Positions 1,317-35,613 of a stretch of DNA of 39,165 nt are shown here, piece after piece. This stretch comes from a virus, in the IMG/VR virus record IMGVR_UViG_3300008216_004413, positions 1 to 39,165 of that record; one strand, written 5' to 3'. A program made the position numbers and the translations under genes. How positions within the stretch are numbered: the first letter of the stretch is position 1; each line of letters starts with the position of its first letter. A model generated the notes under the pieces. It searched no databases. It had not been told where the DNA came from and was given only the letters and a program-made list of their open reading frames with translations.

Positions 1317-2837
1317 ATGATATTTTCCTTAGAGCTCGAACAGCACTTGCTTGCAGGGCTGATTAAATACCCGCACAAATACGGGAACATTGCCACCTTT
1401 ATCAACGAGAATGATTTTTGCGCAGACGAAAATGCCATTAATAAGACTATCTTCTATGTCCTGCGCCAAGCTTTAGAGAACGCGGAAAAAATGGACGAGG
1501 TTTTGCTCGCTCAAAGAGTTGACGCTCTTAACATCAGCTTTCCCAATGATATTAAAATTTCAGATTATATTCATTCCCTAGCCCTTCGTAAAGTCTCGCC
1601 CGACAATATCGAAAAGATAGCTCAAGAACTCAAAAAGTTCACTGTTAGGCGAGAAATTTTTGAGGGGGCAAAGAAGGTGGCCGATTCGATGCGCAAAATG
1701 TCCCCTTCCGTTCCCTATAACGAGATAATAGAGAGCGCAGACAATACCTTTAATGAAAAAATTAACTTCTTTGATGCTGGCGCCAGCAGTCCTGTCAATA
1801 TCTCAGACGAGATGGAAGAATGGATCGAACTGAGAGGCAACAACCCTGTTACTGAATTTGGCCTTATGAGCCCCTACAAGCGCCTTAACGATCTTTACGG
1901 GTCTTTGTTGCGGCCGGGCAATATAACGGTCATAGTGGCCCGCTCAGGGGTCGGGAAGACACGTTTCTGTATGGACTTCTGCACCAAGGTTTCTTCTGAG
2001 TATAATGTGCCTATTTTACATTTTGATAACGGTGAAATGTCCAAAGAAGAGCTTATCATTCGCCAATGTTCCGCACTAAGTGGAATTTCGGCTAATTTGC
2101 TTGAAACAGGGCAATGGAGACAAGCTGGAGAAGAAACAGTAAATAAGGTTCGTTCTGTATGGAAGCAGGTTAAAAACATTAAGTTTTACTACTATAACGT
2201 TGGTGGGATGGGTGTAGATACCATGATAGCAACCCTTCGCCGTTTTTATTACTCTAAAATTGGCAGAGGAAACCCGATGATATTTTCTTTTGATTATATT
2301 AAAACTACTTTCGAAAACAACGGAACTAAATCTGAGTGGCAAATCGTTGGCGAAATGATAGACAAATTTAAAAAAACCATCCAAAAAGAAATTCTTTCGG
2401 ACGGGGGCCCTGTCATTCCAATGATCACATCCGTCCAGAGCAATCGCCAAGGTATTGTCAACGTTCGTCAGCCTCAAGACGTAAGAGACGACGAGAGCAT
2501 TGTTTCGCTATCTGATCGCATTACTCAATTTTGTTCTCACATGTTTATTTTGCGCCAAAAAACATTAGAAGAAACGGCCACTGAACCTAACTGTGGCAAC
2601 CACAAACTTATTAATGTTAAATCACGTCACCTTGGGGCAGATTATATGCGAGCTATTAATCCTGTGAGAATGCCTGATGGATCCCTTCGCAAAAATGCTA
2701 TTAACCTTCAAATGGATGGTTTCACTGTGGAAGAGCGTGGAGATATGGTAGACTTGGTCAAAGCCTTAAATGTTAACGAAGAGCTTGACGGGGAGAATAA
2801 TGTTGTTGATGATTTTATTCCGGAGCTTTTGCGCTAA
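1317..2837 (+). CDS. DnaB-like replicative helicase
   Basis: 506 residues with the layout of hexameric DnaB helicases: an N-terminal helical domain beginning with LELEQHLLAGLIKYP (the typical DnaB N-terminal helix), a linker, and a RecA-fold ATPase with Walker A ARSGVGKT at residues 208-215 and a Walker B-like strand FSFDYIKTT near 323. The IPMITSVQSNRQG segment fits the sensor/arginine-finger region. The protein unwinds DNA at the fork and would work with the primase 1.5 kb downstream and the polymerase III alpha halves further on. No Shine-Dalgarno sequence is evident; a promoter with the -10 nine bases upstream suggests leaderless expression. Confidence 0.9.
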   Translation: MIFSLELEQHLLAGLIKYPHKYGNIATFINENDFCADENAINKTIFYVLRQALENAEKMDEVLLAQRVDALNISFPNDIKISDYIHSLALRKVSPDNIEKIAQELKKFTVRREIFEGAKKVADSMRKMSPSVPYNEIIESADNTFNEKINFFDAGASSPVNISDEMEEWIELRGNNPVTEFGLMSPYKRLNDLYGSLLRPGNITVIVARSGVGKTRFCMDFCTKVSSEYNVPILHFDNGEMSKEELIIRQCSALSGISANLLETGQWRQAGEETVNKVRSVWKQVKNIKFYYYNVGGMGVDTMIATLRRFYYSKIGRGNPMIFSFDYIKTTFENNGTKSEWQIVGEMIDKFKKTIQKEILSDGGPVIPMITSVQSNRQGIVNVRQPQDVRDDESIVSLSDRITQFCSHMFILRQKTLEETATEPNCGNHKLINVKSRHLGADYMRAINPVRMPDGSLRKNAINLQMDGFTVEERGDMVDLVKALNVNEELDGENNVVDDFIPELLR

Positions 2838-2841
2838 AGGT

Positions 2842-3732
2842 ATGATTAAAGCTTTCATGTATCACGACATTAGGAACCCACAATACGGTGGCTACCCTCG
2901 TCGCTTAGAGCTGCGTTCTTTTTTGTCTACGTCGCAATTCAAATGCCAGCTAAAATTTATCACTGAAAATTATACAGTGATAGAGCCCCAACATTTAAAA
3001 GAGAACTTAAAAAGGGACTGCGCCATCCTTACATTCGATGATGGCCTTAAAGATCACTATTTAGCAGCTGAGATGCTGCACGAGGCTAAACTGAAGGCAA
3101 CCTTTCTGATACCTACGTTAGCGATTCGAGAGCGAAAGGTTATAAGAGCCCATAAGATACAGTTTATTTTAGCAACCCTTTCTGAGAAAAAGGTAGTAGA
3201 AAATATTTTTGATTTGATGGGCGCAGATCCCTGCGAAAGAGATGCCCTGTGGAATACTTTTTCAGTTTCTTATCATTCTGATAATTGGTGGTCCCAAGAA
3301 ATGGTTTTTGTTACTAATTTTTTACGGCGACATAATACAGGAGATATGATTACAGATAAGCTGTTTGCTAAATTTATAACAAAAGACGAGAAAGACTTTT
3401 GTTCTGATTTTTATTTAACCCCTGCGGAGGTTGGGCATATTGCCGAGTGTGGTATGATTGTGGGAGGTCACGGCTATACCTCAACAAGCCTTGCATCCTT
3501 AAGCAACCAAGAAGAAGAGATCAAAGAGTCTTTGCTTTATGCCGCAAGTTTTTCGGCACCCCCCCTTTCTTTTTCATACCCTCAAGGGTCTTATAACGAC
3601 GACAGTGTTTCTTACGCAAAAACGTATAACTGTGAATTTGCGTACACCACTGACGCTGAAAACATAACATCTGATACCAATTTACTCAAAATCCCTCGCT
3701 TCGATGCGCCCCAAACATTACCCCTCTCATGA
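2842..3732 (+). CDS. polysaccharide deacetylase (NodB homology) family protein
   Basis: I start at ATG 2842, just after the helicase stop; this gives the N-terminus MIKAFMYHDI typical of the family, while the longer frame from 2770 would overlap the helicase by 68 bases. The protein is 296 residues. TFDDG (64-68) is NodB motif 1, and FSYPQGSYND near the C-terminus fits motif 3. Motif 2 appears as GGHGYTSTSL, where the second metal-binding His of H-S/T-x-x-H seems replaced. The family removes N- or O-acyl groups from sugars with a divalent metal. It overlaps a formyltransferase gene by ATGA, so deacetylation then N-formylation of an amino sugar is an attractive inference. Confidence 0.75.
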   Translation: MIKAFMYHDIRNPQYGGYPRRLELRSFLSTSQFKCQLKFITENYTVIEPQHLKENLKRDCAILTFDDGLKDHYLAAEMLHEAKLKATFLIPTLAIRERKVIRAHKIQFILATLSEKKVVENIFDLMGADPCERDALWNTFSVSYHSDNWWSQEMVFVTNFLRRHNTGDMITDKLFAKFITKDEKDFCSDFYLTPAEVGHIAECGMIVGGHGYTSTSLASLSNQEEEIKESLLYAASFSAPPLSFSYPQGSYNDDSVSYAKTYNCEFAYTTDAENITSDTNLLKIPRFDAPQTLPLS

Positions 3733-4394
3733 CAAAACAGATTTTATGTATTACCTATAGGGATTGGGCATTGAAGATATACAAAATGTTGGCCGACGCA
3801 TTGCCGCAATATAATTTTAAAATTATCTTCAACCCCGCTGAAGATATTTGTGCCGTTAAGATTAAGACTTTTCAGCCCGATATTATCCTTTGGTATGGGT
3901 GGAGTTGGATCGTTCCGGAATCTATTGTAGAACAATATGATTGTATTTGCCTACACCCATCCCCTCTACCCCAATATCGTGGAGGAAGCCCCCTACAAAA
4001 CCAAATCCTGAACGGTGAGAAAAACTCTGCGGTGACTATTTTCAAAATGAGCGCTGGATTGGATGAGGGGGACATTATCCGCCAAATCCCCATGTCTTTA
4101 CAAGGAAACATTGGGGACATTTTTTCACGCATGACTACGCTTGGCTTTGCTGGGACATGTGATTTTTTGAAAAATGGTTATAATTTAAAACCGCAAGACC
4201 ACTCTGCGGCGACATTATTTAAGCGACGCAAACCAGCCGATTCCGAAATCACACTCGATGAAATACAAAACCAAACTCGAGAATATCTTTGTAATAAAAT
4301 TCGAATGCTCACACCCCCTTACCCCAACGCTTTCATCAAAGATAAAGAAGGGAAAAGACTATATATAACAAGCGCCCACATCAATGGAAACTGA
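3729..4394 (+). CDS. Fmt-like (sugar N-) formyltransferase
   Basis: 221 residues with the formyltransferase core LHPSPLPQYRGGSPLQNQ and GLDEGDII. Relatives transfer a formyl group from N10-formyl-tetrahydrofolate to an amine: Met-tRNA (Fmt), or an amino sugar (ArnA, VioF, WlaRD types). The short length and the absence of the Fmt C-terminal tRNA-binding domain favour a sugar substrate. In Fmt the catalytic residues are Asn-x-His and Asp; here His76 and Asp112 are present, but the Asn position reads Cys74 (C-L-H). The gene overlaps the deacetylase by ATGA and the primase by 11 bases, so it belongs to the replication-operon transcript although its role is metabolic. Confidence 0.8.
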   Translation: MTKQILCITYRDWALKIYKMLADALPQYNFKIIFNPAEDICAVKIKTFQPDIILWYGWSWIVPESIVEQYDCICLHPSPLPQYRGGSPLQNQILNGEKNSAVTIFKMSAGLDEGDIIRQIPMSLQGNIGDIFSRMTTLGFAGTCDFLKNGYNLKPQDHSAATLFKRRKPADSEITLDEIQNQTREYLCNKIRMLTPPYPNAFIKDKEGKRLYITSAHINGN

Positions 4395-16047: not shown

Positions 16048-17346
16048 ATGATGCCCAATTTACGGGAATACATGGAAGAAGAAAATAAAAAAAATATGAG
16101 TAACAAAGAAAATTTACCCGAGGGTGTATATGAGGCTACCCTAGAAGAGCCCCAGTCCGCACCTCAAGAAGAAACCACAGAAGAAACCACAGAAGAGGCT
16201 ACAGAAGAGGCTACGTTTGACGCTGAGGCCTTTACAGATGACGACCTAGGGGTAGACATCCCTGATATTCCGCTGCCCTCAGAGGCCCCTCCAGAGGACA
16301 AGGTGGAGGACAAATTTGAGTCTGCTTATAAGTTTGCCATTGTCGGGGTAGGTCAAGGCGGTTCGAGATTAGCTGAAACCTTTTGGAAGTTGGGGTATAG
16401 GCGAGTTGCTGTGATTAATACCGCTCCTCAAGATCTAAAATCCGTTAAGGTTCCTGTTGCAAATAAACTTTTAGTTGGAGGCAAGGGAGCAGGAAAGGAT
16501 CGCAAAGTAGCTGAAGATATCTTTAAAGAAAGTCGAGAAGATATTCTAGATTTTCTTAAACGAACTTTTAAAGGGGGTTTCAATAGGGCTTTAGTATGTA
16601 TTGGAGCCGGTGGAGGCACGGGTGCGGGAGGTGGTCCTATTGTGATAGATATTGTTCACGACCTTTGTCAGACCTATGGTATAGAAAATGCAGATACAGA
16701 TGCTCGTGTTGGGGCTGTAGTTGCCCTTCCCACTCGAGCTGAAGGTTCTAAAGTTCAATCCAACGCAAAACAAACAGCGGAGGCGTTAATCAATTTTTCT
16801 CAGAAAGGCACCCTTTCGCCGCTTATCATTTTAGACAACGAGAGAATCAAACAAATTTATCCTAAATTATCTGTCAACAAGTTTTGGGGTACCGCAAACA
16901 CGAGCATTTGTTCTTTATTTCATTTGTTTAACAAGATTGCGTGTCAGGATTCCCAATACACGGCTTTCGATAGCGCAGACCTTGATACTGTTTTTTCATC
17001 TGGCATTATATCTTTCGGGGCCGTTCCGGTCTCTCGTGAAGGCGAAGCTATTGAGGAGACGGATATTAGCTATGCTGTTAGAGATAACTTGAAGAAAAAT
17101 ATTTTAGCCAACATTGAAGTTTCCACGGGGAACGTGGCAGCATGCGTAGTCATAGGAGACCGCCAAACTCTCGACAACACAGCTCAAGAAAGCTTGGAAC
17201 ATGGCTTCGAGCAATTAAGTCGCTTGCTAGGAGAGGGTTCCACCGTTCATCGGGGTATTTATCATACTCCCAAAAAAGGATTGGTAGTTTATACCATTAT
17301 AGGCGGCATCAAGGCCCCTGAACAATTATTTGATTACCATTTGTAA
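16048..17346 (+). CDS. FtsZ/tubulin-family GTPase
   Basis: 432 residues. After an acidic, disordered extension of about 90 residues comes a Rossmann GTPase start (FAIVGVGQGGSRLAETF), the tubulin signature GAGGGTGAGGG at 186-196, and the region preceding H7/T7. The T7 loop reads AFDSADLD (D308, D311): the two acids of the FtsZ NxDxxD motif remain, but Asn is Ala. Phage relatives (PhuZ, TubZ-like) form filaments that position phage DNA or a phage nucleus. An internal ATG at 16096 (MSNKENLP) could be the real start. Partner genes for a segregation system are not visible next to it. Confidence 0.85.
   Translation: MMPNLREYMEEENKKNMSNKENLPEGVYEATLEEPQSAPQEETTEETTEEATEEATFDAEAFTDDDLGVDIPDIPLPSEAPPEDKVEDKFESAYKFAIVGVGQGGSRLAETFWKLGYRRVAVINTAPQDLKSVKVPVANKLLVGGKGAGKDRKVAEDIFKESREDILDFLKRTFKGGFNRALVCIGAGGGTGAGGGPIVIDIVHDLCQTYGIENADTDARVGAVVALPTRAEGSKVQSNAKQTAEALINFSQKGTLSPLIILDNERIKQIYPKLSVNKFWGTANTSICSLFHLFNKIACQDSQYTAFDSADLDTVFSSGIISFGAVPVSREGEAIEETDISYAVRDNLKKNILANIEVSTGNVAACVVIGDRQTLDNTAQESLEHGFEQLSRLLGEGSTVHRGIYHTPKKGLVVYTIIGGIKAPEQLFDYHL
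16171..16218 (+). repeat. 12-base tandem repeat in GTPase N-terminus
   Basis: Four consecutive 12-base units: GAAACCACAGAA twice, GAGGCTACAGAA, then a diverged GAGGCTACGTTT. They encode the ETTE/EATE run of the acidic N-terminal extension of the FtsZ-like protein. Confidence 0.75.
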
Positions 17347-23454: not shown

Positions 23455-24321
23455 TTGCGCGCTTTTATTCACTTGGCATCTTCCTCATTGGGGGACACCT
23501 TAGGATGGATGCCTCAGGCAGAGGAATATAGGCTTACAAATAAAAGTGAGGTGGATATCAGGGTAACCCCTCGTTTGGTGGACTTGTTTGTTTCTGTTTA
23601 TCCCTTTTTAAATTTTGTTCCCGAGAAAAAAGGAAACTATGAGGCTTCTTTCTCTATCGGCTGCCACACGCCTAACGATTTCACAACTCCCCTTATTCAA
23701 GTAGCAACAGAGTGTCTCGGCCTTCCGTTCCAAGAAATTAAACCCCAAATATCCCTTCCTCCAAATTTAAAAAACAACTTTAGAAAAAAATATGTTTGCA
23801 TTGCCACCCAATCCACAGCCCAATGTAAATATTGGAACAATCCGACGGGGTGGGACCAAACAGTTGATTATTTACAAAGCCTAGGGTATGATGTTGTCTG
23901 TATAGATGAGTATGCACGATTTGGCACCGAAGCACACTGGAACGATACGCCAGCTCATTCGATCAGGAAAAATAAATTTGACGATGACCCTGATATTCCA
24001 CTCACGGAACGTATTAATGATTTGTATTTTTGTGATTTTTTTATTGGGCTTGGTTCAGGACTTTCGTGGCTGGCGTGGGCACTCAATAAGCCTGTTGTAC
24101 TAATATCGGGGTTCTCTGCCCCTAAGGCTGAATTTTATACTCCCTATCGGGTAATTAACGAAAATGTTTGTAATTCTTGCTGGAACGATATGGAATGCAT
24201 GCCGTTTGATACTGGTGATTGGATGTGGTGCCCTCGACACAAGGGAACTTCTCGTGAATTTGAATGCAGTAAAGAAATAACTTTTGAAATGGTTAAAAAA
24301 CAAATAGACCGGCTGTTATGA
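23455..24321 (+). CDS. BAHT-like protein O-heptosyltransferase (TibC/Aah type)
   Basis: The start is taken at TTG 23455, five bases after the previous stop; a TTG at 23410 would add 15 residues by overlap. Motifs match the bacterial autotransporter heptosyltransferase family: the opening HLASSSLGDTLGWMPQAEEY, then GLGSGLSWLAWALNKPVVLISGF, TPYRVINENVCNSCWND, and DWMWCPRHKGTSREFEC. In this family four Cys bind iron in a finger motif; here the four lie as C-x2-C-x16-C-x11-C. TibC-like enzymes transfer heptose from ADP-heptose onto serines of proteins. In a phage this suggests protein glycosylation, of virion or host targets. It overlaps the next gene by ATGA. Confidence 0.8.
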   Translation: MRAFIHLASSSLGDTLGWMPQAEEYRLTNKSEVDIRVTPRLVDLFVSVYPFLNFVPEKKGNYEASFSIGCHTPNDFTTPLIQVATECLGLPFQEIKPQISLPPNLKNNFRKKYVCIATQSTAQCKYWNNPTGWDQTVDYLQSLGYDVVCIDEYARFGTEAHWNDTPAHSIRKNKFDDDPDIPLTERINDLYFCDFFIGLGSGLSWLAWALNKPVVLISGFSAPKAEFYTPYRVINENVCNSCWNDMECMPFDTGDWMWCPRHKGTSREFECSKEITFEMVKKQIDRLL

Positions 24322-27300
24322 AAATCAAAGCACATTGCCCTTTCTTGGGTCACACGGGGTACAATGCGCACACCCGAGGTTTCTTTACTGCCCTTAGCAA
24401 AGTGATTGATTTGCGTGTTGATAATTATACTTGGTGTGATGATCGCCACAATTATCTTAGCGCAACGCAAAAAAGAATTGTTTCGGAGATTACCTTGACG
24501 GGAGCCAAAGGACAGGAAAACCAATATCCTCCCGATTGGAAAGAAGAAATAGAAGATTTTCAATATGATGTGGATATTGTGTTGCACGAACATAACCATA
24601 AGCATTTTTGGAGGGATTACAAAAAGCCCAAAATAGCATATACTGTTTGGGAAACAGATAGGTTTGATGCTAATTTTTTTAAAAAACTCCTCGAATACGA
24701 GGAGCTCTGGGTGCCATCGCAATGGCAAAAAGATTGCGCTATCGAACAGGGTTACCCCTCCCAACGGGTTAACATCGTTCCGGAAGCAGTAGAACCTGAT
24801 TGTTTACCTAGCCCCAATATAAGCCCAGACGATTCTATTTTTACTTTTTGTCTACTTGGGAGGTGGGATCACCGTAAATCAATAACCGAAATTTTACAGT
24901 GTTTTATTGAATTGTTTGGCAATAATCCCAAGGTGCAGCTGATAGCTTCAATAAACAACCCTTGTGCTACTGACAATCTTTCCACAAAAGAGCGAATGGA
25001 GAAAATGGGATGGGGAGACGTTAATAATATTATCCTTAAGTCTTTTCCTGATAGAAAGGAGTATATTGAAATTCTCCAAAGTAGCCACGTTTTTTTGTCT
25101 TGCGCGCGTTCCGAGGGATGGAATATCCCCCTGATCGAAGCAATGGCGTGTGGCACACCTTCCATATATAGTGATTGTTCTGGCCAAACAGAATTCGCCC
25201 AAGGCAGAGGCATCCCTATTCGTATTTTAGGCAAAGAGTTGGCTCGCGCAGGAACCACTGCGGTTGCTAGTCAATTTACTTCGGATATGCCCGGCCATTA
25301 TTTTAGCCCAGATTTTGGGCATCTGAAAAAGAAAATGCAGTATTGCATAGATAACTATGACGAGCTTAAGACGAAAGCTCTCAAGGAATCGGTAGAGATT
25401 AGATCCCAATATACGTGGGCAAATGCTGCCCTTATTGCTTCGAAGCATTTAGAAAACTTTGCTTCTACTTATAAGGTTTCCCCTTCTTCCAATAAAAGGA
25501 ACGTTCATGTCCTCCTAAGCGCTGATGATAATTATTTAAAATACGCTACAAGCTGTATAGCGTCTATCAAAAAACATTCTAATTATAATATAGTTTTATA
25601 TGGGTACGATACAGATTTTCAAGGGCGCGCTACACCCCTTGATGTTGAAATTCGGCGTTTGCGCCGGTGGCCCCTAGCAAAAAACGGTCAAGATCTAGGG
25701 ATTATGGGCTCACGCATTTCTATGTGTTTAGATGCTCTGGCGCAGAGGCCGCATGATTTGTTTATTGTTGTTGATTGCGATATGGTTGCAGTTAAAGATT
25801 TAGATTCATTTTTCAGCCAACAGTTTGATCGGCTGGAAAACTACCCGCTTCACCTAACATACAAGCATGATAACCTTATTCACTTTAACATTAAACCGGA
25901 TGGCTCTAAGACTGAAAAGGGGCACGGTGACGAAGCCGCTTCCGTCTTTGGCATAAAGGAGAGAGGGTGCAATCTAGACCATCCTGTTAATTTTACTATT
26001 GCCCATGGAATTTTTGTTTTTGACAAAAAGTCTAAACCCTTTTTGACTGAGTTGCTCGACTTGTCAGTAGACGCCCTAAGCAAAGAACCGTCTTATCTTG
26101 TTGATGATTTAGCTCTAGAGTCCGAAAGAATAGAAAATGCATTGTTTTGGAAATATGGCTTTATGAAGCACCTTCCCCTTTCTTGGGTTTCCCGCGACGA
26201 AGATAATGATTTTCTTAAGCCAGAACTCAAAAAGTATATCAACGAAGGGTTTGATATCGTTTATACCCATAAGGACCGGCGCTCCTATGACATTCGTCCA
26301 GAGCAGGTTTTGTTTTTGCATGGCAAGTTTTCGGTGCCTATTTTATCTAAATTAATGATCGTTGCTCATCCGGATGATGAGACTATTTTTGGATTCACTG
26401 AACTCAATGTGGATAACAAGTGGAAGGTTGTCTGTGTTGCCCCGGATGCTCGCCAAGAAGATTTTTGCAAGGCCATGCGTTTTTATGGTATTAATAACTA
26501 TGAAATATGGGACTTTCATTCTTCCCTCACAACCGACGTCCCCCATCCCCTTTTAGATAAAAAAATAAAGAATTTGCTTGGAGAAAAAAGATGGGATAAA
26601 ATTGTAACCCATAATCCCGTTGGGGAATATGGCCACCGTCAGCATAAAAATATTTTTGATGTAGTCCAAAAACACTGTGATGATTTTTACGTATTTTGTA
26701 AGACTCCCAACCCACTTAGCGCCTCGGAATTAGAACGCAAGCGCGAAGCACTCAACATATATGAATCAGAAGATATTATTTCCCAGCTCGAGCAACTAAA
26801 TGGGGACTGGTTTATATGTAATGATATGTCTACTAATTACATTGAATACGGAAGCGTAGAAAAATATGACGCGTCCAAAGACACCTCTCCTTTTATTAAC
26901 TGCTACGACAAAACCAGCACCCCTAAAAAGAAAGGGTTAAAAGAGGTTTTTTTGATTACGAGCTATTGTGATACCGACGAAAAAATAAAAGCCCTTCAGG
27001 GGTGCCTTGATAATTTAAAATCTTTTGATATTCCTATATGTTTTCATGATGCTTACGGGCTAAACGATCCCCCACAGGTAGATTACTATATTAGAGACAC
27101 ATCCAACCCTATGCCGGACCTTTATGCCAGAAGTCTCTATACGTGCAAGGAGATATGTCCTAACGTAATTATTAATAGCCATTCGTTAGATTATGGGGCT
27201 GCAGCGATGCATCAAGCCAAGACCGGAATTTTATATTTAGACTCCTTGGGGTATGAATTGGTTCATCTTTTAAATTATGATGTTTTTGTAGATTATGATT

Positions 27301-27953
27301 TTTTCACACAAACATGTCAACCCCTTGCATACAATAACAATGTGGTGTTTTACCGGTGGGGAGACACCCGCGATAGGGGGCTTAATAGTGGCTTTTACAG
27401 TATGCAGACAAAAGCATGCAAGGAAACGTTGAGTTCTATGAGCATCGCTGATTATATAGCACAAGTTCCTCCTGACGGCCATTTTGAAGATTACCTAGAA
27501 AAGAAAATATCCAACTCGGATATTCTTAATATAGAAACCGTCCCTTTTGAAACCTATAAGAATTTGATTTATGATCAAATGAGTACCTTTTGTGGCCCTA
27601 AAAAAGAAAGAGATGGGACGTTTGATTTTTTAAAGGTTTTTGAGCAATGGACCTCCAATCAAGCTCATTTTTGGCTAGGAAGAAAGAAATCTCTTGATAC
27701 CCCAGAAAACGGGGTTATATCTGTGATATTCTATGACATCAAGGAAAATTTTAACGCAACCTTAATTGTTAATGGGCAAACTTTTGATAAATTTGTATGC
27801 GCCCCTCATGGAGAGGAGTATTTTTTGCTAGAATCTACCATTAGTGGTAATGATGCCCATTCTGCGTCTGTCTTAATTGACGGGGAAGTTGCCCTTCCTG
27901 AAAATAATGATTGCATTGCTTTAAATAGCATTGAATTTATCGATCATAATTAA
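24318..27953 (+). CDS. 1211-residue multidomain glycosyltransferase/deacetylase
   Basis: Four parts are visible. (1) Residues 1-390: a GT4-like GT-B unit with SEGWNIPLIEAMACGTPSIY near 264. (2) About 393-660: a GT-A domain opening RNVHVLLSADDNYLKYATSCIASI with the metal-binding DCD of VVDCDMVAVKD near 486. (3) About 677-810: a LmbE/PIG-L type zinc deacetylase with AHPDDE (682-687) and a GHRQH motif near 770. (4) About 875-1110: another GT-A-like domain (LITSYCDTDEKIKALQGCL, YELVHLLNYDVFVDYDF), ending in a beta-rich tail. The enzyme could add and N-deacetylate sugars on one glycan. ATGA overlap with the upstream BAHT-like gene; the next ATG overlaps its stop. Confidence 0.8.
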   Translation: MKIKAHCPFLGHTGYNAHTRGFFTALSKVIDLRVDNYTWCDDRHNYLSATQKRIVSEITLTGAKGQENQYPPDWKEEIEDFQYDVDIVLHEHNHKHFWRDYKKPKIAYTVWETDRFDANFFKKLLEYEELWVPSQWQKDCAIEQGYPSQRVNIVPEAVEPDCLPSPNISPDDSIFTFCLLGRWDHRKSITEILQCFIELFGNNPKVQLIASINNPCATDNLSTKERMEKMGWGDVNNIILKSFPDRKEYIEILQSSHVFLSCARSEGWNIPLIEAMACGTPSIYSDCSGQTEFAQGRGIPIRILGKELARAGTTAVASQFTSDMPGHYFSPDFGHLKKKMQYCIDNYDELKTKALKESVEIRSQYTWANAALIASKHLENFASTYKVSPSSNKRNVHVLLSADDNYLKYATSCIASIKKHSNYNIVLYGYDTDFQGRATPLDVEIRRLRRWPLAKNGQDLGIMGSRISMCLDALAQRPHDLFIVVDCDMVAVKDLDSFFSQQFDRLENYPLHLTYKHDNLIHFNIKPDGSKTEKGHGDEAASVFGIKERGCNLDHPVNFTIAHGIFVFDKKSKPFLTELLDLSVDALSKEPSYLVDDLALESERIENALFWKYGFMKHLPLSWVSRDEDNDFLKPELKKYINEGFDIVYTHKDRRSYDIRPEQVLFLHGKFSVPILSKLMIVAHPDDETIFGFTELNVDNKWKVVCVAPDARQEDFCKAMRFYGINNYEIWDFHSSLTTDVPHPLLDKKIKNLLGEKRWDKIVTHNPVGEYGHRQHKNIFDVVQKHCDDFYVFCKTPNPLSASELERKREALNIYESEDIISQLEQLNGDWFICNDMSTNYIEYGSVEKYDASKDTSPFINCYDKTSTPKKKGLKEVFLITSYCDTDEKIKALQGCLDNLKSFDIPICFHDAYGLNDPPQVDYYIRDTSNPMPDLYARSLYTCKEICPNVIINSHSLDYGAAAMHQAKTGILYLDSLGYELVHLLNYDVFVDYDFFTQTCQPLAYNNNVVFYRWGDTRDRGLNSGFYSMQTKACKETLSSMSIADYIAQVPPDGHFEDYLEKKISNSDILNIETVPFETYKNLIYDQMSTFCGPKKERDGTFDFLKVFEQWTSNQAHFWLGRKKSLDTPENGVISVIFYDIKENFNATLIVNGQTFDKFVCAPHGEEYFLLESTISGNDAHSASVLIDGEVALPENNDCIALNSIEFIDHN

Positions 27954-28979: not shown

Positions 28980-29181
28980 TACTATCGCCGTACATAACGT
29001 AAGCCAATATCACCACGCTAAAACTAACTTAGATAATTACTTAGCTAATCCCGCGGCTATTGGAGAACACCCCGACATTGTCACCGAAGCAATTAAGCTC
29101 GTAGAAACTATGGAGGCAGCGGAATCCAACCTTCAAACACTAAATGCGGCCTATGGAACCGACTATACAACAGCAATCTAA
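28960..29181 (+). CDS. small helical protein of unknown function
   Basis: 73 residues with helical character (QYHHAKTNLDNYLANP, DIVTEAIKLVETMEAAESNLQTL). It overlaps the preceding gene by 20 bases and the LicD-like gene by 38, so it is probably translated with both. No known motif. Confidence 0.5.
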   Translation: MKDQLLNTIAVHNVSQYHHAKTNLDNYLANPAAIGEHPDIVTEAIKLVETMEAAESNLQTLNAAYGTDYTTAI

Positions 29182-30196
29182 AAATAAACAACTCTTTCAG
29201 CCCACCCTTGAGCTTGCCCATTGTTTTTCGGAGCATTTGATATCCCAAGGGATAGATGTATGGTTAGAGTATGGGTCGGCTCTGGGGGCGGCTCGAGAAA
29301 AAGGGGTTATAGAAGGGGATACGGATATAGATTTGGGGATATGGTGGAAAGATTGGGATAAGTTTAAGAATATAGTCGTTAGTGGAGAAATACCCTCTTC
29401 TTCCCCTTTTGTTTTTAATTTTCGTACGAATTTGGTGGATGGCTCTGGTTTCTTTGAAGGAACTGACAATAAAGAGGAAAGAAGTGGGGAAATGTGTAAA
29501 ATTGAAATCCCGGAAAACGAGGTGTTTCACATTGATATTTATGGATTTGAAGAGTATGGGGACACTAAATCTTCCGCCATTATTTATAACAAAGCATTTC
29601 GGTCTAAACTTTACTACCAGAAAAACCTTCGTTCAATAAAATTTGATGGGTTTAACTTTTACATTTCTAAGTATAATGAAAAATATTTAGATTATTTATA
29701 TAGAGACGCCGGAGCAAAAGGCCAAACTTGGAGGCGCCCTATTGGTAATTACAACTGGATAACCCAGATGCCCTCTGTATATCAACAAGACGTTGTTACT
29801 GGTTATGTCGAAGGAGTTTTCGACTTGTTTCATAAGGGCCATGTTCGGATTTTAAAAAAAGCTAAGAATAAGTTTGATAAAGTTTATGCAGCCGTCACTC
29901 CAGACGAGATCGTTAAGACTTATAAAAATAACCTCCCCATCCTTCCCTTCGAAGACAGAAAAGAGATGCTTGAGAGTTGTAAATACGTTGATGAGGTCAT
30001 CAGCGCATCCCCGACTCTCGCTCCTACTATTGATTGGATGAACACAAACGGCATAGATTATATTGCAGCGGGAAATAATAAAGAAAATCCTATGGATGAA
30101 TGGTACAGCGAAATCGTCAAAGAAAAGAGATTGATTCTTTTCGATGAAACCCCCGATTATCACACTACCGATTTAATAAAAATAATTTCAAAATGA
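29144..30196 (+). CDS. LicD-like transferase fused to cytidylyltransferase
   Basis: 350 residues, two units. Residues 20-205 resemble LicD phosphocholine transferases and related nucleotidyltransferase-fold enzymes: WLEYGSALGAAREKGVIEGD (GS, then D59/D61/D63 in DTDIDLG) and IEIPENEVFHIDIYGFE. Residues 219-350 are a cytidylyltransferase: GYVEGVFDLFHKGH (the HxGH motif at 230-233), AVTPDEIVKTYKNNLPI, and the DYIAAGNN segment. A CTP:phospho-alcohol cytidylyltransferase makes CDP-choline, CDP-ethanolamine or CDP-glycerol; LicD then attaches the phospho-group to a sugar. Having both in one chain suggests one enzyme that activates and transfers a phospho-alcohol. An ATG at 29153 is an alternative start. 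Confidence 0.75.
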   Translation: MRPMEPTIQQQSKNKQLFQPTLELAHCFSEHLISQGIDVWLEYGSALGAAREKGVIEGDTDIDLGIWWKDWDKFKNIVVSGEIPSSSPFVFNFRTNLVDGSGFFEGTDNKEERSGEMCKIEIPENEVFHIDIYGFEEYGDTKSSAIIYNKAFRSKLYYQKNLRSIKFDGFNFYISKYNEKYLDYLYRDAGAKGQTWRRPIGNYNWITQMPSVYQQDVVTGYVEGVFDLFHKGHVRILKKAKNKFDKVYAAVTPDEIVKTYKNNLPILPFEDRKEMLESCKYVDEVISASPTLAPTIDWMNTNGIDYIAAGNNKENPMDEWYSEIVKEKRLILFDETPDYHTTDLIKIISK

Positions 30197-30714
30197 ATTT
30201 AAATATCTTTATCCCAGCGATTTCAGACCAAACTGTAGTAGATGATTCTATTTTGCCATTACTCCAAGAGGCTATTGCTGAAGGTCAGTTTGTTTACCCT
30301 TATTATATATCGCCAAGCCAGACAGAGAAGGCGTCTTTAGTTTTTGGTTATCTTTTTGCAGCTTGCGTTCGAAATAAAACTTTTGCTTTGGCTTTAGACG
30401 AGGATAATCCCGTAGGGTTTGAGGCTTATTTGCGCAGCCCATTTTGTGATTACTTTAAAACACCTAATGTTTATGATGGTTTGCTTACTTTTGTTTCAAA
30501 ATCTTACCGAAGAAAAGGGGTGTCTACTAAGTTGCGTAAATTTTTACTCAAAAAAGGGGGCTTTAAGCAGGGTGACATATTTCGTTTTAGTGTTAAAAAA
30601 GACAATACCGGGGGGTATTTATCGGTTGACAAACTTGCAAAAGAGCTTACCATTAATATGGTAGAAACGGGGGTTACGTATGAAGGCCAACTCACTCACC
30701 AGCTTGATATTTAA
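30193..30714 (+). CDS. GNAT-type acyltransferase (probable)
   Basis: 173 residues. LLTFVSKSYRRKGVSTKLRKFLLKKG fits GNAT motif A: a strand followed by [QR]-x-x-G-x-[GAS] (R106 to S111 here) at the start of the acyl-CoA pyrophosphate-binding helix. The sheet before it (FALALDEDNPVGFEAYLRS) is also typical. GNATs acylate amino groups, for instance of amino sugars, or proteins. It overlaps the LicD-like gene by ATGA and the citrate-synthase-like gene by 35 bases, so a joint role in decorating a sugar is plausible. Substrate is unknown. Confidence 0.6.
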   Translation: MNLNIFIPAISDQTVVDDSILPLLQEAIAEGQFVYPYYISPSQTEKASLVFGYLFAACVRNKTFALALDEDNPVGFEAYLRSPFCDYFKTPNVYDGLLTFVSKSYRRKGVSTKLRKFLLKKGGFKQGDIFRFSVKKDNTGGYLSVDKLAKELTINMVETGVTYEGQLTHQLDI

Positions 30715-31306
30715 GGAGTTAACAGGGAAAGACATTTTACCTGAGCAAGAAGCGTTTCTTGATGAAGTTGCCCCTATTGTGGCTGATTTTAAATATGATT
30801 TGCTTGAACCTCCCAGTTCTACCTCGGTAGCTCTCTCTGTCGCTTGCAAGAAAGACCTTTATCAAACCTTATCCAACAGTATGAGTTTATGGGGCAATAA
30901 CCATTTTGTTTTTTCGGATGTGGTGCGTCAATGGCGTACCGGGGATTATCCTGCGCTCATAGCGGGGATGGGGCACCCTAAGTTTAAGGAGGGCGACCCT
31001 CGGGTGGTTGAAATAGAGCGATTAGCCACCCAACACAACCTTATCTTTCCTTCTTTAGGATCCTTTAAAGAGTTTGCGGGGCACAAGGGGCTATATGTCA
31101 ATTTAGCCGGGTGTTTAGGGGTTATATTATATGATATGGGGTTCAAGGAGGATAATGTAGATTTTTTTCCTATGGTATGGAGATTTTTGGGACTGACAAA
31201 GCTTTATGGCTTTCTTAATGATGAAATTAAACTGGGAAGTGGTATAAATTGTATTAAAGAGGCTTACCGAAAGGTTTATCCGGATCGTTACGATGTTTCC
31301 AAATAG
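30680..31306 (+). CDS. minimal citrate-synthase-like protein
   Basis: 208 residues, about half the length of bacterial citrate synthase (near 430). It still resembles that family in three catalytic blocks: a His in LWGNNHFVF (H75; in citrate synthase LxGPLHGGA), GMGHPKFKEGDPR (H99; family GFGHRVYKNxDPR) and NVDFF (D161; family NVDFYSG). Those are the three residues that condense acetyl-CoA with oxaloacetate. The small domain and acyl-CoA contacts (K-x-x-DPR) are retained, while the N-terminal part is shortened to about 70 residues. It could condense or cleave an acyl-CoA with a small acid. It follows a GNAT, which uses acyl-CoA. Confidence 0.65.
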   Translation: MKANSLTSLIFKELTGKDILPEQEAFLDEVAPIVADFKYDLLEPPSSTSVALSVACKKDLYQTLSNSMSLWGNNHFVFSDVVRQWRTGDYPALIAGMGHPKFKEGDPRVVEIERLATQHNLIFPSLGSFKEFAGHKGLYVNLAGCLGVILYDMGFKEDNVDFFPMVWRFLGLTKLYGFLNDEIKLGSGINCIKEAYRKVYPDRYDVSK

Positions 31307-32024
31307 TTCCCAATTTATAGGACAACTTGTTGCCGACTTAGAGCCCATTGAGGAAACGCTCTCAAACCCTTATTTTTCCTATACCCTAGGCTTTAATATC
31401 AAACATAATGAAATTTGCCAATGCAAACTTTATATTCGTTTTTTTGATCGTGACGATTCTTTTTTAAAATTTTTTGAAATTTTTACAGACTTGAATATTA
31501 AGCAAATGGCTATTCATGATTTCCACCATGCGGAAGACATTGCTTTTGAGAAGAGCGCATTAGGCTTTAAGGGATTTACCATTGGCCTTGTGAAAGATTT
31601 TAATACTAATAGAACGGGGTGTGGATGGGGAGCTCGTGCCACAAGTATCATTAGTGGCCCTTATTTTTATGGTTATAGGTTTTTTGATGATTTTCTTTCC
31701 AGAAAAATGTACAAATACGTTACACCTAATCGACGCCTTTTCAAGTTACCTTTTATGACGGAGATGGTGGAAACACAAGAGTTATTTGGCGAAAAAGAGC
31801 ATAAATATTGTTTGTGCCCAACTATAACCAGAGATAATTTAAGTGAAATTAGTCGGTCTATGGAGGGCAACTTAAGCCCTTCGTGTAAATTATATCATAA
31901 TGAAATTATAGAGGCTAACCCTGCGTTGACGTTGGTTAATATGGGGATAGGCCCTAACGAAGAAAAATTGTATTATCATAACTTCAAGCGTTCGAATAAA
32001 ATAAAAAATTATCTTTTAAAATGA
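31293..32024 (+). CDS. protein of unknown function in glycan cluster
   Basis: 243 residues, family not recognised. There is a TGCGWGARATSIISGPYFYGY segment, several Cys (GCGWG, KYCLCP, SCKLY) and an HDFHHAED motif that might bind metal. Alternating strands and helices (CKLYIRFFDRDDSFLKFFEIF, IAFEKSALGFKGFTIGLV) suggest a mixed fold. No signal peptide. It overlaps both neighbours (14 bases and ATGA), so it belongs to the LicD/GNAT/methyltransferase transcript. Confidence 0.6.
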   Translation: MFPNSSQFIGQLVADLEPIEETLSNPYFSYTLGFNIKHNEICQCKLYIRFFDRDDSFLKFFEIFTDLNIKQMAIHDFHHAEDIAFEKSALGFKGFTIGLVKDFNTNRTGCGWGARATSIISGPYFYGYRFFDDFLSRKMYKYVTPNRRLFKLPFMTEMVETQELFGEKEHKYCLCPTITRDNLSEISRSMEGNLSPSCKLYHNEIIEANPALTLVNMGIGPNEEKLYYHNFKRSNKIKNYLLK

Positions 32025-33271: not shown

Positions 33272-33697
33272 ATGAATAGTTATATTATTGGGGCAACCCT
33301 AGGCATTACCCTTTTGGTTTCGGCGGTAGGGTATTTTTTTTATAAGAAAAATGAAAAGCTTAAGGCCGAATTAACGACGATCAACCTCCAAGTGGAGAGC
33401 TATGAGAATCGTTTGGGGCAGTTAACCGAAGCGGTTGATGACGCCCAAAAAACCATGGACAGCCTACACGAGCGCAACAATGCGATAGAAGATGCCGCAG
33501 ACAAAAGGAAAGAAGAGCTGGATAAGGTGCTGAGGACACACGACATAAATAAGATAGCAGAACGAAAAGCATCTCTTTTAACCCGAAAAGTGAACCGTGC
33601 CAGTGCGAAGGTCATGGAAACGTTTGAATTGTTGACTGACCCTCGATACGTTTATACTGGACCCATTGATTTTGGCGCCTCTTCGATGGAAAGGTGA
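33272..33697 (+). CDS. Rz-like inner-membrane spanin subunit (probable)
   Basis: 141 residues. One N-terminal membrane helix (YIIGATLGITLLVSAVGYFFY) is followed by a long coiled coil (KNEKLKAELTTINLQVES through NAIEDAADKRKEELDK) and a conserved-looking helix, HDINKIAERKASLLTRKVN. This is the outline of phage i-spanins, which span the periplasm with an outer-membrane lipoprotein to fuse the two membranes at lysis. A lipoprotein of the right kind lies 4 kb further on (37854). A GTGA overlap joins it to the first sulfotransferase, an unusual neighbour for a lysis gene. Confidence 0.65.
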   Translation: MNSYIIGATLGITLLVSAVGYFFYKKNEKLKAELTTINLQVESYENRLGQLTEAVDDAQKTMDSLHERNNAIEDAADKRKEELDKVLRTHDINKIAERKASLLTRKVNRASAKVMETFELLTDPRYVYTGPIDFGASSMER

Positions 33698-34281
33698 GGG
33701 ATTTTATTTTTATTCATGTTCCTAAAACAGGAGGAACGGCGGTACGTAAGGCTCTAGAACCTTATGCTTATATAGGATTTGGTCATACTTCCATCAAAGC
33801 CCCACGGCTAAAGCCTTATATTGAAAAATGTTTTTCTTTTTGTTTCGTAAGAAACCCATGGGATAGATTTGTAAGTGCTTATTTTTACCTTGAGCAACAC
33901 AAGGAACCCGGAAAAAGCTATAAAAAATTTTACGAAATGTATATTAAGCCCTACAAAACATTTAAAGACGTGGTGATGAATATAGACGAAGACAAGGGAA
34001 ATCTTTTTTTCTGGGATCACTTCGCTCCCCAGATGAATTATATCACAGATGACCACGATGATGTGGCGGTGGATTTTATAGGAAGGTTTGAAAATATTAA
34101 TGAGGATTTTGGTGTGGTGTGTAAAAAAATTGGCATTCCTTCCGTAAATCTCCCCCTATTAAACACATCCCCTCACCAACCTTATTGGGAATATTATGAT
34201 GACGAAAGTCGGGAGATGATTTTTCGCAAATATAACCGGGAGATAAACCATTTTAATTATACCTTCGCGTACGATGGTTAG
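33694..34281 (+). CDS. sulfotransferase, copy A
   Basis: 195 residues from a GTG start overlapping the spanin stop as GTGA. IFIHVPKTGGTAVRKAL is the 5'-phosphosulfate-binding loop of PAPS sulfotransferases (Sulfotransfer_2 family) and FVRNPWDRFVSAYFYL the 3'-phosphate-binding helix. DFIGRFENINEDFGVVCKKI is also typical. The enzyme moves sulfate from PAPS to a sugar or other hydroxyl. It is the first of three adjacent sulfotransferase genes and is clearly a paralogue of the next one: the two share an exact 48-base stretch (34123-34170 here). Confidence 0.85.
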   Translation: MRDFIFIHVPKTGGTAVRKALEPYAYIGFGHTSIKAPRLKPYIEKCFSFCFVRNPWDRFVSAYFYLEQHKEPGKSYKKFYEMYIKPYKTFKDVVMNIDEDKGNLFFWDHFAPQMNYITDDHDDVAVDFIGRFENINEDFGVVCKKIGIPSVNLPLLNTSPHQPYWEYYDDESREMIFRKYNREINHFNYTFAYDG

Positions 34282-34297
34282 CATTAAATATTACTGA
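34274..34297 (+). pseudogene. relic of the start of the third sulfotransferase gene
   Basis: ATGGTTAGCATTAAATATTAC then TGA. This eight-codon frame (MVSIKYY) matches the first codons of the third sulfotransferase at 34885 (ATGGTTAGTATTAGG, MVSIR). In both places it overlaps the end of a copy-A-type gene in the same way. It marks the breakpoint of the duplication that created copy B. Confidence 0.65.
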
Positions 34298-34298
34298 G

Positions 34299-34892
34299 GT
34301 GAGAGATTTCCTTTTTATTCACGTTCCTAAAACAGGGGGAGTTTCTGTACGCAAAGCTTTAGAGCCTTATTCTTATATAGGGGTTGATGGGGAGCATACC
34401 CCTATCAAGGCGGCACAATTTGCCCCTTATGTGGGAAAGTATTTTTCTTTTTGTTTTGTAAGGAATCCATGGGATAGATTTGTCAGTTCTTATTTTTACC
34501 TTAATAGAGGGGGCGCAAACACACGGCCCGATAAAAAGGCTTACGCAATGTATATTGAGCCCTACAAAACATTTAAAGATGTTGTGATGAACATAGGCGA
34601 CGACAAAGGAAACCTTTTTTGTTGGCAACACTTTGCTCCCCAGATGAATTATATCATAGACGAGCACGAGGATGTGGTGGTTGATTTTATAGGAAGATTT
34701 GAAAACATTAATGAGGATTTCGGTGTGGTGTGCAAAAAAATTGGCATTCCTTCCGTAAATCTCCCCCTATTAAACACATCCCATCACCAACCTTATTGGG
34801 AATACTATGATGACGAGAGCCAAGAGATGATTGCTCGCAAATATAATAGGGAAATAAGCTATTTTAATTATACCTTCGCTTCCAATGGTTAG
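34299..34892 (+). CDS. sulfotransferase, copy B (tandem duplicate)
   Basis: 197 residues from a GTG start. LFIHVPKTGGVSVRKAL and FVRNPWDRFVSSYFYL are the PAPS-binding loops. Most of the second half is the same as copy A (FKDVVMNI, HFAPQMNYI, DFIGRFENINEDF), with the most change in residues 25-90, which include the part around the helix that often shapes the acceptor site. An exact DNA match and a shared GTG start indicate a recent duplication. Its last eight bases overlap the third sulfotransferase gene. Confidence 0.85.
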   Translation: MRDFLFIHVPKTGGVSVRKALEPYSYIGVDGEHTPIKAAQFAPYVGKYFSFCFVRNPWDRFVSSYFYLNRGGANTRPDKKAYAMYIEPYKTFKDVVMNIGDDKGNLFCWQHFAPQMNYIIDEHEDVVVDFIGRFENINEDFGVVCKKIGIPSVNLPLLNTSHHQPYWEYYDDESQEMIARKYNREISYFNYTFASNG

Positions 34893-35613
34893 TATTAGGC
34901 ACAAGTGTGTTTTTGTGCATATCCCTAAAACGGGGGGCGTAAGTATTGCTGAGCCTCTTTTCCCCGCTGCCGCCCGTAGAGGGGAGATATCGAGTTACCA
35001 TTCGTTGCCGGAGGCCGAAAAAGACGCGTTTAGTTATTTGGATGGAATGGGAGTGGGTTCCCCTCGGCATGGCTTTAATAAATACTGCGAAGGATCCCTT
35101 GGGCATCTGCCGGTTAAATATATTCGCGAGGAAATCGGAGAAGAGATGTTTGAAGAGTATTTTAAATTTGCTTTTGTAAGAAACCCGTGGGACAGAGCTG
35201 TTTCCCAGTTTTTTCATTTAACACAGGGCTCCGTGAGTCATGGAGAACGCCCTGATCTGCAGCAATGGTTGCGTATTTCCCGAAGCGGTGTTTATTCAAG
35301 CCCCTGCTTCGAGGAATATCTGGAAGCTATCCTACGGGCGCCCGCTCATGTGTTTTTTATTCCCCAAGTAGAATTTATTTTAGATGATGGCGGCAACCCT
35401 CTTATAGATTTTATTGGGCGTTTTGAAGATTTGCAAAAAGACTTTAACACTGTGTGCGATACAATAGGATTTCCCCGCACTCCCCTTGGGGCAGATACAC
35501 ACAAAACAGCCAGAAAATATAGATCTTACCATGGCTTTTATAGCTCCGCAGCAAAGGAAATGGTCGCAGAAATATACAAAAAAGATATTGAATATTTCAA
35601 ATACCAGTACTAA
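34885..35613 (+). CDS. sulfotransferase, third and divergent copy
   Basis: 242 residues. CVFVHIPKTGGVSIAEPLF (5'-phosphosulfate loop) and FVRNPWDRAVSQFFHL (3'-phosphate site) place it in the same PAPS family. It is about 45 residues longer than copies A and B because of an insertion between the two motifs (about 30-85) and another after the second. DFIGRFEDLQKDFNTVCDTIG is conserved. It may have a different acceptor from the duplicated pair. It overlaps copy B by eight bases. Confidence 0.85.
   Translation: MVSIRHKCVFVHIPKTGGVSIAEPLFPAAARRGEISSYHSLPEAEKDAFSYLDGMGVGSPRHGFNKYCEGSLGHLPVKYIREEIGEEMFEEYFKFAFVRNPWDRAVSQFFHLTQGSVSHGERPDLQQWLRISRSGVYSSPCFEEYLEAILRAPAHVFFIPQVEFILDDGGNPLIDFIGRFEDLQKDFNTVCDTIGFPRTPLGADTHKTARKYRSYHGFYSSAAKEMVAEIYKKDIEYFKYQY

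Follow-up and report, generated by a model that had tools for sequence, protein, structure and literature searches.

A gene for a short citrate synthase (CS)-like protein lacking the catalytic Asp of that family lies at 30680..31306 on the plus strand of an IMG/VR virus record of 39,165 bases, which was analyzed at its full length and is here called the window. The gene starts with ATG and encodes 208 residues, the length also given by an earlier, sequence-only reading of the window, and its product is matched by PF00285, by NF004868 and, as a structural model, by citryl-CoA lyases. Its 5' end overlaps by 35 nt (30680..30714) with the plus-strand gene of a GNAT-type acyltransferase of 173 aa (30193..30714; Acetyltransf_1, E=6.2e-4), and it is followed on the same strand by gene X (31293..32024), encoding 243 aa of no known family. 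The sequence-only reading had the CS-like gene preceding a C-methyltransferase gene, which was inexact, with gene X being found in between. The window also carries replication-type genes (a DnaB-like helicase, a DNA polymerase III alpha-like gene and an exonuclease), an RIIA gene, a Clp-like AAA protein, one tRNA and an extended stretch of glycan-related genes that includes glycosyltransferases, one of them with a PIG-L deacetylase domain, as well as a LicD-cytidylyltransferase fusion, a sulfotransferase and a PfkB kinase. Given this gene content, the window is therefore phage DNA.

The 208-residue protein almost certainly belongs to the CS superfamily. PF00285 matched its residues 88-171 with E = 2.9e-6 and 27.0 bits, a significant match lying exactly at the curated cut-off of 27, and independently matched two divergent phage homologues, L058 (E = 2.4e-9, 37.1 bits) and L175 (E = 3.3e-6), with the scores of L175 (26.8 bits) and of the closer relative L009 (20.0 bits) falling below that cut-off. 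The NCBIfam citryl-CoA lyase family NF004868 matched with E = 2.2e-9, far under that family's own cut-off, with NF004866, NF004868 and NF004869 giving 23.4, 36.8 and 25.9 bits vs the respective cut-offs of 245, 193 and 212. A sequence search of the PDB gave weak CS matches only. AlphaFold2, using an alignment (A4) of 10 rows of which six were CS regions, produced a model with a mean pLDDT of 74.5 and a pTM of 0.72, poor over the last 30 residues; because bacterial CS sequences were included in this alignment, the model and the sequence evidence are not independent. Foldseek with this model gave the citryl-CoA lyase 6hxp as the top match in the PDB (E=4.1e-5), and all of the 50 best matches were CS, methylcitrate synthase or citryl-CoA lyase / ATP citrate lyase, although at large rmsd values (6-12 A) that support the fold and not its fine geometry. 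The ORF is real, has the all-helical CS fold and does not represent one half of a disrupted gene. The kinship with CS originally proposed was thus borne out by the PF00285 match at cut-off, the NF004868 match and the PDB matches of the model. The accompanying description as half the usual length holds against full CS (427 aa) but is misleading, since the relatives of short citryl-CoA-lyase type have only about 245-290 aa and it is mainly their N-terminus that the window protein is missing.

We compared the active-site residues in E. coli CS numbering, combining a BLASTP comparison with GltA of E. coli and a number of MAFFT alignments that contained bacterial CS together with short citryl-CoA-lyase-like (CCL-like) proteins. 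The sequence-only reading had credited the protein with all three catalytic residues, with H75, H99 and D161 as the counterparts of H264, H305 and D362. For H99 (30974..30976, + strand) this was correct, as it was found over H305 in every alignment. The glycine anchor in LWGNNHF vs LWGPAHG puts H75 (30902..30904, +) at H264, and because most automatic multiple alignments instead place it one residue earlier, that assignment is graded as probable, with the register uncertain by one. The third assignment did not hold. BLASTP placed LYVNLAG over LYPNVDF, with the MAFFT alignments in agreement, so that the NVD of GltA, containing the catalytic Asp, corresponds to N141-L142-A143 and D362 itself to A143 (31106..31108, +). 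D161 (31160..31162, +) aligned 18 residues past the D362 position, where GltA has Thr, and its column has Asn in L058/L059 and Leu in L175; the resemblance between NVDFF and NVDFY is therefore a coincidence.

The oxaloacetate-binding set H226/R314/R387/R407' was also incomplete, with only two of its members kept, both being oxaloacetate-binding arginines in CS that the sequence-only reading had left unmentioned: R314 as R108 (31001..31003, +) and R387 as R168 (31181..31183, +). The H226 position is V34 in the window protein, and the region of R407, at the C-terminus, is missing, as is the N-terminal portion of GltA's large domain. In all five phage members H75, H99, R108 and R168 were invariant, and the position of the catalytic Asp was occupied by Ala or Gly. 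Taken together, the alignments indicate that the phage CS-like protein very probably lacks the catalytic Asp, and, as judged by homology, H99, R108, R168, A143 and probably H75 would line the cleft, with D161 falling outside it. It is thus very improbable that the protein works as a citrate synthase or citryl-CoA lyase by means of H75, H99 and D161: its CS fold, the two of three residues in place and the NVDFF motif would agree with such activity, but the distance of D161 from the D362 position, its lack of conservation, the Ala or Gly at the D362 position and the missing H226 and R407 region all speak against it. We reject a role as a metabolic gene of the TCA cycle on the strength of the active-site residues, and the protein is not a citrate synthase for that cycle.

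The phage family comprised five members in three lineages, all from related large environmental phages, with 23-29% identity between lineages. A first scan of viral sequences using the window protein (P0001) alone gave no relatives, and motif scans gave L009/L012 together with L004/L013 (86% identical) and L058/L059 (26-29%). A scan for polymerases of the window type identified 385 related stretches; the best 80 were retained, and among 50 of their records longer than 40 kb one further carrier was found (L175, a 205-kb contig). The CS-like gene was not found in 27 other records of polymerase relatives, which may be fragments. Identity to the polymerase of the window was 89% in L012/L013, about 59% in L058 and about 56% in L155, the latter from the L175 record. 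In a tree the five phage rows formed one side of a branch with support of 98/98, on long branches. No new members were found by a scan of viral contigs with a C-terminal motif, where the remaining matches were unrelated proteins, and a motif scan of a genome collection turned up, besides one frame matching by chance, citrate synthases of full-length type and no short relative. The CS-like protein had no match among the PHROGs or in a viral structure library, and tblastn searches of 50,697 phage records with P0001, L058, gene X and the GNAT gave no match. Full-length CS has already been reported as a viral metabolic gene, with gltA having been described from Lake Baikal viromes (PMC8066274), but in the PHROGs, these 50,697 records and the structure library we found no description of the short, Asp-less form.

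The GNAT gene was located directly upstream of the CS-like gene and overlapping its 5' end in all five phage loci, with overlaps of 35 nt (window, L009), 71 nt (L058, L059) and 17 nt (L175). The window GNAT scored 20.5 bits with Acetyltransf_1 vs a cut-off of 20.7, with those of L058 (29.0 bits) and L175 (23.0 bits) being above it, and the GNATs of the three lineages showed only weak mutual resemblance. The other neighbours changed. In L009, a DegT aminotransferase and a carbamoyltransferase take the place that the LicD fusion has in the window, upstream of the GNAT, and gene X is followed by neither the C-methyltransferase nor the sulfotransferases; in L058 the pair is flanked by UvdE; and in L175 it is flanked by GMP reductase/IMPDH and a JmjC-like protein, with no glycosyltransferases adjoining. 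The LicD fusion and the C-methyltransferase, which the sequence-only reading had named as neighbours, were beside the pair in none of L009/L012, L058/L059 or L175. As the GNAT overlap is constant while these other neighbours change, the conserved unit therefore consists of the GNAT and the CS-like protein. The CS-like gene is probably translationally coupled to the GNAT gene, and we consider a functional partnership of the two proteins likely. However, because the polymerase identities show the carrier phages to be related, the linkage may partly be inherited synteny. As a separate observation, the pair in L175 (L175:4196-8328) lies within an overlapping run of genes for JmjC/Cupin_8, IMPDH/GMP reductase, an unassigned 156-aa protein and a UPF0489-like protein.

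Between the window and L009, omega was 0.22-0.23 for the CS-like gene, 0.12-0.13 for the GNAT gene and 0.11-0.15 for gene X; the CS-like gene is thus under purifying selection (omega about 0.22). This led us to reject the notion that the gene is a decaying, functionless remnant of a citrate synthase gene once captured, which would fit with the short length and the partly missing active site but is scarcely credible given this omega, the intact reading frames and an architecture that three lineages share. The three genes had dS values of 0.36-0.65 in this comparison, while the next gene shared by the window and L009 had 72% nucleotide identity at 86% protein identity and a synonymous distance beyond computing, which suggests, from this one comparison, that the block of GNAT, CS-like gene and X underwent a more recent exchange than the regions around it. 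Gene X follows the pair in the window and in L009/L012, being conserved in these sister phages at 89% identity. It had no match above threshold in Pfam, PHROG or NCBIfam, no counterpart was found in L058/L059, and L175:8328-9116 was rejected as a homologue, the similarity not being significant. A model of its product had a pLDDT of 31 and was useless, with PDB matches by chance only.

The closest cellular sequences were proteins of about 245-290 aa annotated as citryl-CoA lyase, the very comparison that the sequence-only reading had suggested. Residues 5-202 of P0001 aligned, weakly (E = 0.3), to a short Paraburkholderia protein, and a profile of the phage proteins, run against about 700 bacterial genomes, gave a best E of 2.7e-9, the matches read being mostly short CCL-like proteins. 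These bacterial proteins (the PRK06224 group; NF004866, NF004868 and NF004869) share the fold, a near-full-length alignment and the counterparts of H305, R314 and R387 with the phage proteins. Many of the sampled members also lack the catalytic Asp (having T, S, N or A) and lack H264 as well, and the Asp-bearing short members L033, L077 and L083 keep H264. The phage proteins, in contrast to the sampled Asp-less bacterial members, keep an invariant His at the H264 position or one residue before it, the latter also being the placement of a His in one Rhodococcus protein. The combination of a conserved His with no Asp is typical of neither bacterial short group. The phage proteins differ further in that they score far under the bacterial cut-off (36.8 bits vs 193), are without most of the N-terminus, group in a clade of their own and occur paired with a GNAT. 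The two short citryl-CoA-lyase-type genes examined in their genomic context were situated among genes for CoA-transferase, HMG-CoA lyase, CoA ester lyase and acyl-CoA dehydrogenase. The annotation of the short bacterial 'citryl-CoA lyase' proteins L028-L032, L067, L070, L079-L082 and L084-L088, all without the catalytic Asp and the H264 His, merits a re-check.

A normal Claisen condensation is unlikely without the Asp base that D362 represents. With Ala or Gly in its place in every phage member and with D161 unconserved, the sequence-only reading's inference of an ordinary condensation or lyase reaction that would provide an unusual acyl group for the GNAT or another transferase fails; the part of that proposal linking a CoA-thioester role to the GNAT is instead favoured, because the overlap of the two genes has been kept in three phage lineages. 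In the pig enzyme, the D362 counterpart Asp375 is the base deprotonating acetyl-CoA (PMC5830745). The absence of D362 could equally mean that the CS-like protein performs no catalysis at all. The CS fold would then be retained without catalysis, binding CoA or acyl-CoA as a subunit that stabilizes, regulates or feeds the GNAT, a pseudoenzyme reading to which we give only slightly less weight than to an enzyme of altered chemistry. The Asp is missing in five of five members, the gene overlap suggests a fixed stoichiometry, and a precedent exists in ATP citrate lyase, for which a non-catalytic, allosteric role of the CS-homology module has been argued (PMC10115795). Set against it is the invariance of H75, H99, R108 and R168 at 23-29% identity, being more than CoA binding alone seems to require. 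The best structural matches of the model, Hydrogenobacter thermophilus citryl-CoA lyase (6hxp) and the ATP citrate lyase module (6hxo, 6nzy), are of similar module size; ATP citrate lyase keeps the catalytic Asp, however, as D1026 in human ACLY, the residue that was mutated to Ala in that work (PMC10115795), where the phage proteins have Ala or Gly.

The residues that are left, namely the conserved His, the probable second His and the two arginines, are compatible with the binding of a CoA thioester and a carboxylate. Given the constant GNAT neighbour, the simplest model is an acyl-CoA-handling partner of the GNAT, whether as an enzyme of altered chemistry or as a binding subunit. As a whole, we tentatively favour the view that these proteins form a branch of the short CS / citryl-CoA-lyase superfamily that is specific to phages, lacks the Asp and acts as such an enzyme. 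In the CS cleft, the CS-like protein would hold a CoA thioester, with R108 and R168 positioning a partner that carries a carboxylate, and it would run a CoA-thioester reaction independent of proton abstraction by D362; the acyl-CoA product may then pass to the overlapping GNAT, which would acylate an amine. In the window phage this amine might belong to an amino sugar in a surface glycan. A glycan target is thereby suggested only by the nearby genes in the window phage. More specifically, the pair of His residues and the two carboxylate-binding arginines might support a decarboxylative or base-free CoA condensation, using for example malonyl-CoA, that yields a dedicated acyl donor within a complex of the protein and its GNAT, with an unusual N-acyl group on the phage glycans as the outcome, but we give this version only a slim chance.

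Citrate synthase is a homodimer and host-takeover genes are known in phages, and a CS fold with an incomplete active site might in principle pair with or mimic the host CS and disturb it, steering carbon off the TCA cycle. We find this improbable, as the phage protein is closer to the short citryl-CoA-lyase types than to full-length CS, which disfavours mixed dimers with the host enzyme, and as the constant overlap with a GNAT gene would be left unexplained.

An annotation pipeline would likely label the CS-like gene as belonging to the TCA cycle, against which its active site argues. The phage CS-like proteins are a new variant of the known CS fold with a constant acyltransferase partner, and the fixed overlap makes the two proteins a concrete and testable system; they also draw attention to the bacterial 'citryl-CoA lyase' group, many sampled members of which have neither the catalytic Asp nor the His.

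Some further features were noted in the window. The gene at 29144-30196 encodes a single phage protein in which LicD and cytidylyltransferase domains are fused, and that at 24318-27953 a multidomain protein of 1211 aa combining a GT4 glycosyltransferase with a PIG-L-type deacetylase domain, the counterpart of which in the sister phage L012 is rearranged and fused with the next gene. Three sulfotransferase-like genes are arranged in tandem at 33694-35613, two of them near-duplicates, with the one tested matching Sulfotransfer_2 (E=5.7e-13). Polysaccharide deacetylase-like and formyltransferase-like genes adjoin the replicative helicase (2770-4394), and the gene at 16048-17346 weakly matched PhuZ, a phage tubulin (E=7e-4), with a GGGTGAG motif present.
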